Source: Actinomycetota bacterium (lineage in GTDB: Bacteria > Actinomycetota > Geothermincolia > Fen-727 > Anoxymicrobiaceae). From it: 35,395 nucleotides of DNA. The stretch spans positions 13,492 to 48,886 of the forward strand of contig PMJJ01000048.1 of assembly GCA_003157385.1 (NCBI GenBank), written 5' to 3'. The position numbers were made by a program, and so were the translations under genes. The notes beneath the pieces are model-generated. The model saw nothing but the letters and a program-made list of their open reading frames with translations. It made no database searches and had not been told where the DNA came from. The first letter of the stretch is position 1. Each line of letters opens with the position of its first letter. Of the stretch, positions 3,006 to 30,195 are shown in pieces.

Positions 3006-5432
3006 TCAGGCTGCGCGGCCGGAATCCATCAGACCGGTCATGCGGTTCTCGCTGGTCCTCCAGCCGGACAGCCTCCAGGCCACCTCCATCAGGATTATCC
3101 CCGCCACGGAGATCGCGACGGTCTGGATGATGATGGTCCACTGGGGTATGTCGAGGGCGAAGAAGTCACGCAGGTACGGCACAGTGAGGATGATCAACAG
3201 GCCGAGCAGCATGGCCGCGACCAGACCTTCCTTCCACCAGGTCCAGGGCTTGCAGAGGACCCCCAGTATCCACAGGCCCAGCACCACCAGCACCAGCGTC
3301 GCGGTGGTGCGCGACTCGGCGATGGCGATCCAGGGGTAGATGTGGGAGAGCGCGGCGGCGCTGAACGCGGCCAGGGCCGCAACGATCCCGGCGGGGATGG
3401 TGAACCGCATGACCCGTTTGACGAACCCCGGCCGGTAACGCGCCGTGTTCGGCGCGAACGAGAGCACGAACGCGGGGGCGCCGATGGTCAGGCCGCTCAC
3501 CAGCGTGAGGTGGCGCGGGAGGAAGATGAAGGCCCAGCCCGCGAGGCCTATGGCGATCGAGAGCAGCGTCGCGTACACGGTCTTGGTGAGGAACAGGTTC
3601 GCCACGCGCTCCATGTTGCCTATCACCCTGCGGCCTTCGCCCACCACCGCCGGCAGCGTCTCGAAGCGGCCGTCCAGCAGCACCAGCTGAGCCACGGCCC
3701 TGGAGGCCGGCGAGCCGGTCCCCATGGCGATGCCGATGTCCGCTTTCTTCAGCGCCAGCACGTCGTTCACGCCATCGCCGGTCATGGCGACCACGTGGCC
3801 CCTGCTCTGCAGAGCCGCGACCATCGCCTCTTTCTGGTTGGGCTTCACGCGCCCGAAGACCGTGGAGGTCTCCAGCACCGCGGCGAGATCTTCCTGGTCG
3901 TCCGGGAGCGTGCGCGCGTCCACCGGCTGGCCCACGTCTATCACGCCGGCCGTCCTGGCTACCGCGCCGACCGTAACGGGGTTGTCGCCCGAGATCACCT
4001 TGATGGTGACACCCTGCTCGTAGAAGTAGGCAAGGGTCTCCGGCGCGTCGCCGCGCACGCGCTCCTCGAAGACCACTATGGACGCCGGGTCCAACGCGGG
4101 CAGGGTCTCTTCGGTGATGTCGCGCTCGGCGCGGGCCAGCAGCAGCACCCGCAGGCCGGTGCCAGCAAGCTGCGAGACTTGATCGCCCAGTTCCTCGTGT
4201 GAGCCGATCTCATCCATCATGACCTCAGGCGCGCCGAGCACCCAGGTCCCGTTGTCCCCGAACGACTCCGAGCTCCACTTCCTCACCGACGAGAAAGGCA
4301 CCCGGCCGGTTATCTCCCAGCCTTCAGGCGCCTCGAACGCCTCGGAGATCGCCTCCAGCGTGCTGCTCTTGGAGGCGGCGTCCATGCCGAAGCCGCCAAG
4401 GACCTGCTCAAGCTCCGCCTCGTCGTGGGCGCTTACCGCGACGGGGACCATCCTGTTGAACGCGAGCTTTCCCTCCGTGAGGGTCCCGGTCTTGTCCAGG
4501 CAGACCACGTCGACGCGGGCGAGTCCCTCAACCGCGGGCAGCTCCTGCACCAGCACGTTCTTGCGGCCGAGCACCACCACGCTCACGGCGAACGCCACGC
4601 TGGTCAGCAGCACCAGTCCCTCGGGGACCATCCCGACCAGCCCCGCCACCGTCCCGGTCGCCGCGCGATGGAAGGTCCCGAAGACCTTCAGCTGGCTCAC
4701 CAGCAGCAGGATGCCCACCGGCAGCATGACCCAGGTGATGTAGCGGAGGATCATGTTGATGCTGTCGCGCAGCTCGGAGGAGACCAGCTGGAACTGGCGG
4801 GCCTCCGACGCCAGCTTGCGGGCGTAGGCGTCGGCCCCGACCTTCTGGGCCCTGAAGCTGCCTGTGCCCGCGACGATGAAGCTCCCGGACTTGACCTCGT
4901 CGCCCGGCTTCTTCACCACCGGGACCGACTCGCCCGTCAGCAGCGACTCGTCGACCTCCAGCCCCTGCGCCTCGAGCACGGCGCCGTCCGCCACCACCTG
5001 CTCGCCGGTGGACAGCAGCACCACGTCGTCGACGACCACTTTGCCGAGCGCTATCTCCTCCTCGCGGCCGTCGCGGACCACCCGCGTCTTGGCCTCGCTG
5101 ATCAGGGTAAGCCTGTCCAGCGTCCACTTCGCGCGCACCTCCTGCACGATGCCGATGAGCGTGTTGACCACGAGCACCGCGCCGAAGAGGGCGTCGCGGG
5201 GGGAGCCGAAAATGAGGATCACCACGAACAGGGAGCCGAGGATCGCGTTGAACCTGGTGAAAACGTTTCCCCTGATGATGTCGGTGTAGTTGCGGCTCGA
5301 CTTCTGCTGGACCGCGTTGGTCTCGCCGCGGGCTTCTCGCTCGGCAACCTCGGCCGCGGTCAGGCCCCTGGTGCCCCCGGGCGCTTCGTCTCGCGCGTAG
5401 ATCTGGGTCGAAACCGGCAAGCGCCCTCCCAT
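3006..5432 (-). CDS. cation-translocating P-type ATPase (CtpE-like)
   Basis: 808 aa; DESLLTGESVPV, VCLDKTGTLTEGKL, AMTGDGVNDVLALKKADIGIAMG and multiple TM segments. Confidence 0.93.
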   Translation of the reverse strand: MGGRLPVSTQIYARDEAPGGTRGLTAAEVAEREARGETNAVQQKSSRNYTDIIRGNVFTRFNAILGSLFVVILIFGSPRDALFGAVLVVNTLIGIVQEVRAKWTLDRLTLISEAKTRVVRDGREEEIALGKVVVDDVVLLSTGEQVVADGAVLEAQGLEVDESLLTGESVPVVKKPGDEVKSGSFIVAGTGSFRAQKVGADAYARKLASEARQFQLVSSELRDSINMILRYITWVMLPVGILLLVSQLKVFGTFHRAATGTVAGLVGMVPEGLVLLTSVAFAVSVVVLGRKNVLVQELPAVEGLARVDVVCLDKTGTLTEGKLAFNRMVPVAVSAHDEAELEQVLGGFGMDAASKSSTLEAISEAFEAPEGWEITGRVPFSSVRKWSSESFGDNGTWVLGAPEVMMDEIGSHEELGDQVSQLAGTGLRVLLLARAERDITEETLPALDPASIVVFEERVRGDAPETLAYFYEQGVTIKVISGDNPVTVGAVARTAGVIDVGQPVDARTLPDDQEDLAAVLETSTVFGRVKPNQKEAMVAALQSRGHVVAMTGDGVNDVLALKKADIGIAMGTGSPASRAVAQLVLLDGRFETLPAVVGEGRRVIGNMERVANLFLTKTVYATLLSIAIGLAGWAFIFLPRHLTLVSGLTIGAPAFVLSFAPNTARYRPGFVKRVMRFTIPAGIVAALAAFSAAALSHIYPWIAIAESRTTATLVLVVLGLWILGVLCKPWTWWKEGLVAAMLLGLLIILTVPYLRDFFALDIPQWTIIIQTVAISVAGIILMEVAWRLSGWRTSENRMTGLMDSGRAA

Positions 5433-5491: not shown

Positions 5492-5518
5492 GCAAAACGG
5501 GGACAGCCCCCATTTTGC
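5492..5518. repeat. REP-like dyad element (copy A, divergent core)
   Basis: gcaaaacgggg-acagc-ccccattttgc, followed by gcaccatggtgc. Confidence 0.55.
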
Positions 5519-8198: not shown

Positions 8199-9355
8199 GG
8201 TCCTTCAAGGGGTACCCGCGGCCCGACGGCAAGGTGGGCGCCAGAAACCACGTCGTGGTCATGCCCACGGTCTCCTGCGCGAACGGCGTCGCCGGCGCCA
8301 TCGCACGGCAGGTCGAGGGCGTCGTGCCTCTGTACCACGGCCACGGCTGCGGCAGGGGAGGGCGCGACCTCGAGCTGCACTTCCGCGCGCTGGCGGGCCT
8401 GCTGGCCAACCCCAACGTCGCGGCGGCCCTTCTCGTGGGGCTCGGCTGCGAGGTGGTGAAGGCGCGGTTCCTGGCCGACATGGCGGAGGCGGGCGGCAAA
8501 CCGGTCGAGCACTTCGAGATCCAGGAGGTGGGTGGGTCGCGCCGCGCCGCGCAGAAGGGCGCGGCAATCGCGAGGTCGCTGCTGGAGACGGCGAGCGCGT
8601 GCGAGCGGGTCGAGGCCTCCCCGCAGGATCTGCTGCTGGGCCTGAAGTGCGGGGGCTCGGACTCGCTGTCGGGTGTCACGGCTAACCCGCTGGTGGGCGA
8701 GGTAGCCGACAGGGTCGTGGCGGCGGGCGGGACCACGGTGCTCACCGAGAGCACCGAGATGATCGGTACCAGCCACATCCTCGAGCGCCGTGCGAGCGAC
8801 CCGGAGGTGGCCGCCCGCGTGAAAGAGATGATAGAGGCTGCGGACCGGCGCACGCACGAGATAATGGGTCCCATGGCCTCACTGGTGATCGCCCCGGGGA
8901 ATCTGGAGGGCGGCATGAGCTCGATCCAGGAGAAGTCGCTCGGCTGCATCGCCAAGGCCGGGACGTCGCCGGTGATGCAGGTCGTCGATTACGCGGAGAC
9001 GCCGCAGGCCACCGGCCTGGTCCTCATGGACGGGCCCGGCTACGACACCGAGTCGATGACCGGGCTGGCCGCGGCGGGGGTGCAGGTGATGATGTTCACC
9101 ACGGGGCGCGGCAACCCGATCGGCTATCCCGTAGTGCCCGTCATCAAGATCGCCAGCAACACGCCACTCTTCCGGGCGATGGAGGACGACATGGACGTGG
9201 ACGCCGAGGCCGCGCTCGACGGCGCAAGCCTCACAGGCGCCGGCGACGCGCTGGAGGAGCTACTGCTGCGGGTGCTCGAAGGGGAGCAGACGAAGGCGGA
9301 GCTCAACGGGCAGGACGGGATCATCTGCCTCTACACCACCAACCCCGCCTTCTGA
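8195..9355 (+). CDS. UxaA family (altronate dehydratase-like / SuyB-like) large subunit
   Basis: MRSFKGYPRPDGKVGARNHVVVMPTVSCANGVA...HGCGRGG...GLKCGGSDSLSGVTANPLVG; ATGA overlap with the small subunit. Confidence 0.9.
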   Translation: MRSFKGYPRPDGKVGARNHVVVMPTVSCANGVAGAIARQVEGVVPLYHGHGCGRGGRDLELHFRALAGLLANPNVAAALLVGLGCEVVKARFLADMAEAGGKPVEHFEIQEVGGSRRAAQKGAAIARSLLETASACERVEASPQDLLLGLKCGGSDSLSGVTANPLVGEVADRVVAAGGTTVLTESTEMIGTSHILERRASDPEVAARVKEMIEAADRRTHEIMGPMASLVIAPGNLEGGMSSIQEKSLGCIAKAGTSPVMQVVDYAETPQATGLVLMDGPGYDTESMTGLAAAGVQVMMFTTGRGNPIGYPVVPVIKIASNTPLFRAMEDDMDVDAEAALDGASLTGAGDALEELLLRVLEGEQTKAELNGQDGIICLYTTNPAF

Positions 9356-9402
9356 AAAAGAGGGGTCAGGCACTTTTCGCCCGTTTTTTCTCACCTTGAC
9401 GT
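9354..9402. repeat. REP-like element (copy B, degenerate arms)
   Basis: tgaaaaagaggggtcaggcacttttcgcccgttttttctca directly at the uxaA-like stop codon; core GGGGTCAGGCAC. Confidence 0.5.
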
Positions 9403-14541: not shown

Positions 14542-14580
14542 AAAAACGCACCAAGGTGTCAGGTACCATGGTGCGTTTTG
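14542..14580. repeat. REP-like dyad element (copy C)
   Basis: aaaaacgcacca-aggtgtcaggtacca-tggtgcgttttg: 11/12 paired arms, loop core GGTGTCAGGTACC. Confidence 0.8.
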
Positions 14581-15647: not shown

Positions 15648-15725
15648 CGTGCATCGCGCCGGTGGATGTGCGTGAGGAGCTGAGGCCTCGCCGAGTCAAC
15701 CGGGTCATGCCAGTGACGGCACCTG

Positions 15726-16832
15726 TCACATGTAACCGAGGCGTCGGTACAGGCGCGTCCTGAAAGTCTCGTGCAGGTGGAGCGCCGTCTGCGGGCACAG
15801 CTCCATGCAGCAGTAGCAGGCGATACACTTCTCGTAGTCGTACTCCGGCGCGCCCTTCTTCTCCACCGTGATCGCACCGGCCGGGCAGATGTCGGCGCAG
15901 GAGCGGCAGGAGGTGCAGACGTACTCGTCGACATCGAAGCGCGGCCTGCCGATGTCGGGGAAGAACGCCATGATCCAGGTGCCGGAGAAGCGCTGTGGGA
16001 TGCTGGGCACCGGGCGCCTGAACCGCTTGAGCCTGCTGGCGTCCCCCTCGACTTCGATCTCCTCTGCGGCGATGGGCCCCAGGCCGAGCTCGTGGGCGTA
16101 CTCGATCGACCTGATGGTCTCGGGCTTCATCCCCATCATGCGCGACATGACGCTGTCCATCGCCACGCCGTTGTCGGACGCCATCAGCTTGCCCGCGTGG
16201 TACAAGAACTTGTTCTGCGGCCCGTTGCCCTGGATGCCGACCACCGCGTCCATGACGATAAGGTCGGGCACGCGCAGCCGGTATACCTCGGTCACCATCT
16301 CGGAGAACACGGGGTAGCGCGGGTAGGCAAGGTGCAGGCGCGCCTTGTCGCCGCCGACCAGGAAGCCGTAGCTGTTCTTGATCGCGCCGGTGTTGCGCGT
16401 CATCACGTGCGTCTTGAACTTCGGCACTGAGATGAGGACGTCGGTCTCGAGCACCTTCCTGGAGATGTTGACCTCGACGTCGTGCCCGATCAGCTTCACC
16501 CGCCGGCTCTCTCTGGCGATATTCTCGAACGCGCCCAGCGAGGCTTCCATCAGCCCGGAGATCCTGGCGCTCTTCTCCACGGCGCCGTAGCCGGAGGTGC
16601 CGGGGTTGTCGCCCACGGTGACCGTCGCACCGTCCTGGCGGAGCCGCTCGACCAGCGCCGTGATGACCGCCGGGTGCGTGTTCGCGTGCGTCTCGGGCTC
16701 GTACATGCCGACCATGTTCGGCTTGAGCAGAACTGTCTTGCCGGCGACGTCCAGGGGGAATCGCTCGAAGACGGCGTCCACGGCCTCGCGCATCTTCTCG
16801 TAGGTCGCGTCGAGGATGAGCACCCTAGCCAT
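15726..16832 (-). CDS. DUF362 domain-containing protein with C-terminal 4Fe-4S dicluster ferredoxin domain
   Basis: VLLKPNMVG, VTVGDNPG; CTSCRSCADICPAGA and CIACYCCMELCP. Confidence 0.92.
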   Translation of the reverse strand: MARVLILDATYEKMREAVDAVFERFPLDVAGKTVLLKPNMVGMYEPETHANTHPAVITALVERLRQDGATVTVGDNPGTSGYGAVEKSARISGLMEASLGAFENIARESRRVKLIGHDVEVNISRKVLETDVLISVPKFKTHVMTRNTGAIKNSYGFLVGGDKARLHLAYPRYPVFSEMVTEVYRLRVPDLIVMDAVVGIQGNGPQNKFLYHAGKLMASDNGVAMDSVMSRMMGMKPETIRSIEYAHELGLGPIAAEEIEVEGDASRLKRFRRPVPSIPQRFSGTWIMAFFPDIGRPRFDVDEYVCTSCRSCADICPAGAITVEKKGAPEYDYEKCIACYCCMELCPQTALHLHETFRTRLYRRLGYM

Positions 16833-17698: not shown

Positions 17699-18217
17699 AT
17701 GCTCGAGGTGACCGCGCGGGATTTCAAGCTGAGGCATTTCCGTCAGGGGGATGCCGACGCCATCGTGAAGTACGCCAACAACCGCAAGATCTACAGGCCG
17801 ACGATGGAGATGCCCTACCCGTTCAAGCGGCGGGACGCGGTCGAGTGGATCGAGCAGAACCGCGCCGAGAAGGCCCGCAAGCACCCGGGCATGCTGAGCC
17901 TCGCCATAGTCGTAGACGGCGAGGCCGCCGGCTGCATCGGGCTCTCGGACATCGAGGGCCACAAGGCCGCGGTGGGCTACTGGCTCGCCGAAGAGCTATG
18001 GGGGAGAGGGATAATGACCAGGGCCCTCAAGCTCACCACGCGCTACGCGCTGAACGACATGGGTCTGCGCCGGCTGTGCGCCCACGTGTTCCTGTTCAAC
18101 AGGGCGTCGATGCGGGTGCTCGAGAAAGGCAGCTTCAAGCGCGAAGGAATCCTGCGCAAAGAGACCGAGAAAGACGGCAGGCTCTACGACATGGTCCTCT
18201 ACGCCAAAGTAAGATAG
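17699..18217 (+). CDS. GNAT family N-acetyltransferase (RimJ/RimL-like)
   Basis: LRHFRQGDADAIVKYANNRKIY...GYWLAEELWGRGIMTRALKLTTRYALNDMGLRRLCAHVFLFNRASMRVLEKGSFKREG. Confidence 0.92.
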   Translation: MLEVTARDFKLRHFRQGDADAIVKYANNRKIYRPTMEMPYPFKRRDAVEWIEQNRAEKARKHPGMLSLAIVVDGEAAGCIGLSDIEGHKAAVGYWLAEELWGRGIMTRALKLTTRYALNDMGLRRLCAHVFLFNRASMRVLEKGSFKREGILRKETEKDGRLYDMVLYAKVR

Positions 18218-18361
18218 GGACAGTACTTTCTACTTTTTTTCTACTTTCCAAGGTGGGGGCAGGTACTTTCCACTTTCTTATTCTACTCCGGACAGGTGTC
18301 CGCGAATTCAATTGGTAAGCCAATCGTATGAGTAGAAAAAAAGTGGAAAGTACCTGGCCCT
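18217..18361. repeat. compound REP-like dyad element (copy D)
   Basis: gggcaggtactttccactttcttattctact (18257-18287) facing agtagaaaaaaagtggaaagtacctggccc (18331-18360), plus a partial direct copy gggacagtactttctacttttttt from 18217; fills the space between two convergent stop codons. Confidence 0.85.
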
Positions 18362-23233: not shown

Positions 23234-23854
23234 GTGCTTGTTGACCTTCACGTTCACACGAACATCTCGTCCCGTTGCTCCTCGGTGATGCCCGACGAGC
23301 TGGTCGAGCGCGCACAAGAGCTGGGGCTCGACGCCGTCTGTGTGACCGAGCATTCGACTTACCGCGGGGCTCAGGTCAACTACGAGTACGCCAAAGAGCA
23401 CGACTTCCTGGTGTTCAGGGGAATGGAGGTCTACACCGAGCAGGGAGACATGCTGGTCATCGGGTGGGACACCAACATCCGCTACTACCTCTTCCCGTTC
23501 GAGGACCTCAAGCGTGAGGTCGATGAGCGCAACGGGATCATCATTCCGGCGCACCCCTGCCGGGGCGAGGCGGACGCGCGGCACCGCAGCAAGGGTGAGA
23601 TAGAGGAGGAGCTCCTGGACTCGATCTGCGCGATCGAGACGCGCAACGGCGCGATGACGCGCAAGAGCAACGACCAGGCTGAGGGACTGCGCAAGAGGTA
23701 CAAGCTCTTCGGCACCGGCGGCAGCGACGCGCACCACGTGAGCCACATCGGCCGCTGCCTGACCGTCTTCGAGGAGGAGCCCGGCGACGAGGTCGAGCTT
23801 ATCGAGGCGCTACGCGGCGGCAAGTACCGCGCCTGCTACCTCGAGGACCTCTGA
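23234..23854 (+). CDS. PHP domain metal-dependent phosphoesterase
   Basis: MLVDLHVHTNISSRCS...VTEHSTYRG...IIIPAHPCRG...GTGGSDAHH; GTG start. Confidence 0.93.
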   Translation: MLVDLHVHTNISSRCSSVMPDELVERAQELGLDAVCVTEHSTYRGAQVNYEYAKEHDFLVFRGMEVYTEQGDMLVIGWDTNIRYYLFPFEDLKREVDERNGIIIPAHPCRGEADARHRSKGEIEEELLDSICAIETRNGAMTRKSNDQAEGLRKRYKLFGTGGSDAHHVSHIGRCLTVFEEEPGDEVELIEALRGGKYRACYLEDL

Positions 23855-23951
23855 CGGGGACAGGTACTTTCCACTTTTTTTCTACTCTCGATCGCCGTGC
23901 CCGCTGACCCGCGGAAAGTAGAAAAAAATGTGGAAAGTACCTGTCCCCGTC
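23853..23951. repeat. REP-like dyad element with long near-perfect arms (copy E)
   Basis: gacggggacaggtactttccactttttttctact (23853-23886) vs agtagaaaaaaatgtggaaagtacctgtccccgtc (23917-23951): ~34-bp arms differing by a single-base indel, 30-nt spacer. Confidence 0.92.
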
Positions 23952-23957
23952 ATCAGA

Positions 23958-23985
23958 TTGACTAAACGGTCAAAACTAATAGAAT
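23958..23985 (+). promoter_or_regulatory. sigma70-type promoter with overlapping TTGAC-N6-GTCAA palindrome
   Basis: TTGACT (23958-23963), 16-nt spacer, TAGAAT (23980-23985); TTGACTAAACGGTCAA (23958-23973) is a perfect dyad of 5-bp arms. Confidence 0.6.
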
Positions 23986-24146
23986 TATCAACGCTCTGGT
24001 TAAGGAGATGGCCGGCGGTGAATGGTTTGATGGGAAAAAAATCGAGAGCTTGCGCAAGTGTGTGGTGGTGTCCGGACGGAGGATGGACGGGCGCGCTGAC
24101 CACCGACCGACCCCATTTGACCAGGAAATCCAGATTGTCGGAATAG

Positions 24147-24176
24147 TGACCCCTCGTGCCAGGGGTCATCTTTTTT
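24147..24176 (+). terminator. intrinsic terminator inside the leader of the DUF35/thiolase operon
   Basis: tgacccct-cgtgcc-aggggtca followed by tctttttt. Confidence 0.8.
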
Positions 24177-27727: not shown

Positions 27728-27765
27728 GAATGCACCACTGGTACCTGACACCGGTGGTGCATTTC
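27728..27765. repeat. REP-like dyad element (copy F)
   Basis: agaatgcaccac-tggtacctgacaccg-gtggtgcatttct; loop contains GGTGTCAGGTACCA on the reverse strand, identical to copy C. Confidence 0.75.
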
Positions 27766-29651: not shown

Positions 29652-30158
29652 ATGAGGAAGAGCAACAGTGTGCTTATCATCGCCGTGTTCGTTGCGCTGC
29701 TCGCGGGCATGCTGGCCGCGGGCTGTGGGAGTTCCGGGACGTCGAAGGCGACGACCCCGACCTCACCGAAGAGCAAGACCGCGTCTACGGCGACCGGGAC
29801 GGTCGTGCCAACAGAAGCCGAGCTCGGCGTGCCCGTCTACCCCGGCGCGCAGATGGACGAGAACTCCGCCCTCACCAGCACCGACGCCTCAGGCAAGAAA
29901 GAGGTCATCGCGGCGCAGATGTGGACCACCGACGGCACGGACCCGGTCATCGCCTGGTACAAGGACAAGCTCTCGGGGAAGCCTGAGTTCAAGGAGATGC
30001 CGGTGGTCGAGGCGGGGCAGAACTCCACGATCCTGGCCTGGAAAGAGGGCGACAAGTACAAGATGATCACCATCGGGCCCGGGACCATCGACCACAAGGG
30101 CCAGACGGTGATCGGCCTGGGCGCGGGCACACCGCCGGTGCCAGGCGGCACCCAGTAA
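29652..30158 (+). CDS. lipoprotein of unknown function
   Basis: MRKSNSVLIIAVFVALLAGMLAAGCGSSG (signal peptide + lipobox); RBS gggaggaga. Confidence 0.75.
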   Translation: MRKSNSVLIIAVFVALLAGMLAAGCGSSGTSKATTPTSPKSKTASTATGTVVPTEAELGVPVYPGAQMDENSALTSTDASGKKEVIAAQMWTTDGTDPVIAWYKDKLSGKPEFKEMPVVEAGQNSTILAWKEGDKYKMITIGPGTIDHKGQTVIGLGAGTPPVPGGTQ

Positions 30159-30195
30159 AAATGCAAAAATGGCGCCAGGCACCAATTTTGCATTT
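30158..30195. repeat. REP-like dyad element (copy G)
   Basis: aaatgcaaaaat-ggcgccaggcacc-aattttgcattt between convergent stop codons. Confidence 0.75.

Follow-up and report, generated by a model that had tools for sequence, protein, structure and literature searches.

Core-sharing intergenic repeats of an Anoxymicrobiaceae bacterium and their probable derivation from TIRtrons

Among the described systems, the closest to the repeats considered here appear to be the TIRtrons, in which, according to the main text of Di Nocera et al. (2013; PMC3733652), a Y1 transposase (TIRYT) lies between inverted repeats with the common motif GGGGWSAS, while further repeats, some of them self-complementary, occur elsewhere in the genome singly, as dimers or in groups; the same source notes the stop-proximal placement of REPs in other bacteria. 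Enzymes of TnpA-Y1 subclass 2.1 carry NHYH and Y-x-x-LNP motifs and a C-terminal helix-turn-helix (HTH_23/28, Bac_DnaA_C-like) (PMC6006769), and REP-like sequences were not found near the genes of this subclass (Quentin et al., 2018; PMC6006769). The GTAG REPs and REPINs, with their RAYT transposases, are short intergenic palindromes near gene 3' ends that form dimers and clusters and include transposase-flanking copies.

The window analysed here, a stretch of 35,395 nt from an Actinomycetota bacterium of the Anoxymicrobiaceae, contains repeats that can be compared with these systems. As in the TIRtrons of the main text of PMC3733652, the inverted repeats fit GGGGWSAS (here GGGGACAG and GGGGTCAG) and recur away from any transposase gene; in contrast to them, the gene copy in the present host is a remnant, a palindromic GGTGYCAGRYACC variant stands beside the GGGG form, and the sequence families themselves are absent from that text. 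Proteins of related genomes share the motifs of subclass 2.1, but clear hairpins lie beside several of their genes. With the GTAG REPs the present repeats have in common their short palindromic form, location and grouping and the presence of copies beside transposase genes, whereas they show no GTAG/GTGG foot as the defining tag; what is conserved is a core, GGKGYCAGRYAC, which either lies within a hairpin or forms the outer end when the inverted repeat is long.

Repeat families with a common core

An earlier note on this DNA had read seven or more intergenic dyads, A to G, as a single family. The core sites that it listed for B to G are exact matches to GGNGNCAGGYAC where it had placed them (9362+, 14555+, 18255+, 23856+, 23937-, 27741- and 30171+) and, with up to one mismatch, the window holds 19 matches compared with 7.8 ± 2.8 in shuffled sequence, a count that none of 100 shuffles reached. 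In the host assembly (2.58 Mb), GGNGNCAGGYAC has 130 matches as against 16 for the reversed pattern, and GGGGACAGGTACTTTC has 41 as against 0 for its control; the note had named a core frequency no higher than chance, or absence of the elements elsewhere in the genome, as grounds for giving up the idea, and what is found is a pronounced excess and families scattered through the assembly. The core also exceeds its control in all nine same-family relatives, weakly so in one of them (G002, 41 vs 23). The window gave no match in Rfam, WhiB, a marker of Actinomycetota, was likewise unmatched, and literature queries with the core sequences matched only human, mouse, pig and other animal work.

These are real repeats with a common core, but they form at least three families (E, B and C/F/G) rather than the one originally supposed; nearly all copies are intergenic and most lie 3' of genes. 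Elements of the E family have bodies that mostly measure 84-107 bp and ~30-nt terminal inverted repeats (GGGGACAGGTACTTTCYAC...), with GGGGACAGGTACTTTCYACTTTTTTTCTACT at either end; 61 arms and 23 pairs, some of them nested, are present in 618 kb of sampled sequence. Element E itself (23852..23952) consists of two inverted ~30-nt terminal repeats (GGGGACAGGTACTTTCCACTTTTTTTCTACT) and lies 1 nt past the TGA stop of a plus-strand gene (23288-23854); its inverted repeat spans 30 nt with 97% complementarity (23852-23881 / 23923-23952) and folds with z = -11.5 relative to shuffles. The E stem shows little covariation (2/20 pairs, term 0.07), and the arms, as read from the sequence, have three inward frames without a stop codon. 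Element D (18216..18361), in which a degenerate extra E-type arm (18216-18247) precedes a complete E-type element (18255-18361), fills the gap between convergent stops at 18217 and 18360.

The B family (GGGGTCAGGCACTTTTCG; layout GTAGAAANGGGGTCAGGCACTTTTCG...TTTCTAC) is represented in the window by a plus-strand copy at 9356..9393, with the core GGGGTCAGGCAC at 9362-9373, directly 3' of a plus-strand stop at 9355, and has other copies in the genome; in many of the B copies GTAGAAA precedes the core on its 5' side, where it belongs to a stem. Another large amplification is seen in G007, the relative with the closest recR identity (85%), whose 1.8-Mb genome has one transposase-like gene (L184) and 193 core matches; nearly all of the matches listed are GGGGTCAGGCAC, and the copies seen continue with cgtctacct(t/c)tccgtctac.

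The C/F/G family comprises short hairpins, e.g. AAATGCACCACCGGTGCCAGGCACCGGTGGTGCATTT; G has a stem of another type, ATGCAAAAT...ATTTTGCAT. Its window members are C (14543..14579, plus strand; AAAACGCACCAAGGTGTCAGGTACCATGGTGCGTTTT; z -5.0), F (27728..27764, minus strand; z -5.1) and G (30159..30195, plus strand; ATGCAAAAAT stem; z -4.3), the last of which lies between convergent stops at 30158 and 30207 and closely resembles a hairpin next to one of the transposase genes of relatives (G012, L073 2230). Across the window, folding relative to shuffles is between z -4.3 and -7.8 for C, D, F and G and about 0 for B. In this family the core is self-complementary, GGTG (or GGCG) pairing with YACC, so that it continues the stem and does not merely occupy the loop of an unrelated one, as had been proposed. 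The terminal repeat of the E arms fits GGGGWSAS as GGGGACAG, and B and many arms in relatives fit it as GGGGTCAG; C, F and G have GGTGYCAG or GGCGCCAG in its place, and their feet (AAATGCA/AAACGCA) show no common GTAG/GTGG tag by inspection.

The hairpin A (5492..5518, plus strand; GCAAAACGGGGACAGCCCCCATTTTGC), read directly from the sequence, retains in GGGGACAGCCCCC half of the core only and is a weak member, and a supposed cousin at 15713-15729 was rejected, its core being unmatched even with one mismatch allowed; neither is therefore relied on. A terminator-like hairpin at 24146-24169 (GTGACCCCTCGTGCCAGGGGTCAT, followed by CTTTTTT) has GGGGTCA in its arms, which resembles the repeat ends with a different core order.

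Placement of the elements relative to genes

With the gene calls of the present analysis, six of the seven copies in the window either follow a stop on its 3' side or are enclosed by convergent stops, as the earlier note had it, and A lies in a divergent gap. Placement was further assessed in the 618 kb around core matches, a sample biased to element-bearing regions, with genes called by a simple codon-based caller made for the analysis. Coding sequence makes up 88% of the sample, yet all 23 paired E elements stay clear of called genes. In 17 of 21 cases an edge of E lies within 4 nt of a stop, compared with 6.8 expected if the element is placed uniformly within its gap, only the element-bearing gaps of the sample being used (0/5000 simulations); some nested E pairs have common arms and are not independent. 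Relative to the share of intergenic bases, E is frequent in convergent gaps (10/22; P = 0.0003) and rare in divergent ones (1/22; P = 0.003). Convergent gaps without elements have a median length of 29 nt, so the short gaps around E are not odd by themselves.

The place occupied by E in the window can be recognized in relatives that lack the element. The gene upstream of it aligns end to end at its C-terminus, down to the same last residue, with the ortholog in G007, where no element follows, and the promoter-like sequence TTGACT-16-TAGAAT, which starts just past E (23958..23985, plus strand), recurs after the ortholog of this gene in G001, G002, G005 and G006, likewise without an element. On one side of E, then, is a stop codon and on the other a promoter-like sequence, both of them conserved; since these relatives stand outside the genus, the empty place is not exact to the base.

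Transposases of the relatives and the remnant in the host

The earlier note had proposed a search for a Y1 or RAYT gene flanked by the same core, and such genes exist in relatives, with a remnant in the host. Y1_Tnp genes are present in eight of the nine same-family relatives (in G001, with a 3.9-Mb genome, matches to the Y1 transposase number 13 and those to the core 236), and in a wider set of relatives an inverted repeat scoring at least 15 flanks 27 of 62 Y1 genes, compared with none of 62 in shuffled sequence. The flanks of these 62 genes contain 112 core-like motifs as against 7 reversed ones, and many of the genes in the same-family relatives have flanking inverted repeats that include the core GGKGYCAG. 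The flanking arms read GGGGTCAGGTCTTG... and GGTGTCAGGCACC..., the flanking core repeats are AATGGGGTCAGGTCTTGTTTTTTGCATACCC in G018, ACCTACACAAAGGTGTCAGGCACCTTTGTGTAGGT in G020 and CCGTTGGTGTCAGGCACCAACGG in G005, and hairpins of the same build as the B and C/F/G repeats flank TIRYT-like genes in G003, G004, G005, G012, G020 and G025. No intact gene flanked by the E sequence itself was seen, and none of 59 relatives carries that sequence; a scan for GGGGACAGGTACTTTCYAC in one genome each of 85,462 species returned two single matches in Bacteroidales, a number near chance.

Aligned proteins of same-family relatives and of the wider class (alignment A1) have NH[YF]H, Y-x-x-LNP and a C-terminal HTH. 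The five that were tested score with Y1_Tnp and, for the most part under the NCBIfam cut-off, with REP_Tyr_transpos, and most of them give weak C-terminal HTH or DnaA-C matches, below the Pfam cut-offs. Judged by motifs and profiles, the enzymes of the relatives look like TIRYTs (subclass 2.1) and not like the classical RAYTs of GTAG REPs, so that the REP/RAYT-type affinity originally suggested for the dyads stands in a refined form, with TIRYT-like enzymes and several core-sharing families.

In the host assembly, which is 85% complete, neither a Y1_Tnp search nor a profile of the relatives' proteins detected an intact Y1 transposase. The profile has a single match (contig C107, 4498-4665; E = 3.6e-5), confined to the C-terminal HTH, which marks a short remnant of 58 profile positions between E-type arms at 4387-4414 and 4659-4692 that are 89% complementary, the left one being degenerate. 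The remnant and its E-type inverted repeats lie directly 3' of a gene which, from reading the sequence, we take to be recR. In G004 and G001 a full-length transposase gene starts just 3' of recR, and GGGGTCAG repeats occur no more than 10 nt from the stop of recR; in the seven other relatives no transposase was found 3' of recR within the stretch examined. In G008 (L194), several C-type hairpins (GGTGCCAGGCACCAGTGGCGCATTTTT) are located 3' of recR, where others carry the transposase or its remnant. The remnant inside E arms at recR, together with the intact genes at the same site in G004 and G001, ties E to TIRtrons by descent. Six host contigs (C30, C46, C53, C66, C88 and C104) end within or near E arms, so an intact transposase gene may be hidden in the gaps of the assembly.

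Origin of the repeats

So what are these dyads? It is highly probable that they belong to the REP/TIR kind of mobile repeats and are non-autonomous, E representing the terminal inverted repeats of a TIRtron that has lost its gene, and B and C/F/G sister families presumably moved by related enzymes. Against this stand the want of an intact Y1 gene in the host assembly, the shortness of the remnant and its degenerate left arm, the failure to see the E sequence around an intact gene and the sparse covariation of its stem. An intact cognate transposase in the same genome is usual, although repeats and TIRtrons can occur apart; given that the host retains a C-terminal remnant only, we file E as derived from a TIRtron rather than as a functional unit. 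For B and C/F/G, which have the look of sister families, no enzyme was seen. E and the related families are, then, additional members of a known sort of mobile repeat and a well-preserved example of it.

A reading of the dyads as host transcription terminators or RNA-stabilizing 3' hairpins, alike through common function and not through mobility, would suit their 3' location and convergent bias, the 25 terminator-like sites in the region compared with 9.6 expected, F and G among them, and the A-tracts and T-tracts at the feet of C-type hairpins. Nevertheless, terminators would not be expected to place one 12-base core in unrelated stems or to form inverted pairs around transposase genes, no T-run lies beyond the stem of E, and the sequence families differ among related genera; we consider this explanation very unlikely and any use as terminators possibly a secondary role. 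Still more improbable, to the point of being barely credible, is that E arose as a MITE from an insertion sequence of the DDE type, with no relation to Y1 transposases: the ~30-nt terminal inverted repeats and the ~90-bp body are MITE-like, but inspection of the flanks of 22 paired E elements revealed no target-site duplication, and the sole coding remnant seen between E arms is the C-terminus of a Y1-type transposase.

It is also conceivable, albeit unlikely, that E alone derives from a TIRtron and that B and C/F/G, never mobilized by a TIRYT, came to have the core in common with it by chance or secondary recruitment. Such separate origins would agree with the fact that no transposase remnant was found alongside B or C/F/G in the host; the hairpins of the same build beside TIRYT-like genes in six relatives argue against them.

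Under the preferred derivation from TIRtrons, the ancestral unit would have been a Y1 (HUH) tyrosine transposase with a C-terminal helix-turn-helix, set between inverted repeats. At the replication fork the enzyme would have recognized the core and its hairpin in single-stranded form and would have cut and rejoined the repeat, spreading copies into intergenic DNA, chiefly beside stop codons, where insertion does the least harm and where the hairpin may double as a transcript end; transposition is here an inference, as is terminator activity. In this strain the family may have lost its mobility; alternatively, the unassembled part of the genome may contain the enzyme gene.

A more tentative proposal, to which we would give a little less than even chances, is that TIRYTs with a C-terminal HTH recognize the one core GGKGYCAGRYAC in two forms, as the GGGG end of a long inverted repeat and as a self-complementary GGTG REP hairpin. 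The GGTG form would then be a class of REP without a GTAG foot that arose from TIRs by replacement of the third base, G->T, linking TIRs to REPs within one lineage.

Since their description in 2013, TIRYTs and their repeats have received little study; in the literature searched, two papers alone name them. The present lineage brings together units that are intact, one that has decayed at an orthologous site, the repeat families derived from them, and relatives in which the place orthologous to that of an element is empty. It provides natural substrates for asking whether TIRYTs mobilize repeats and how terminal repeats become REPs.
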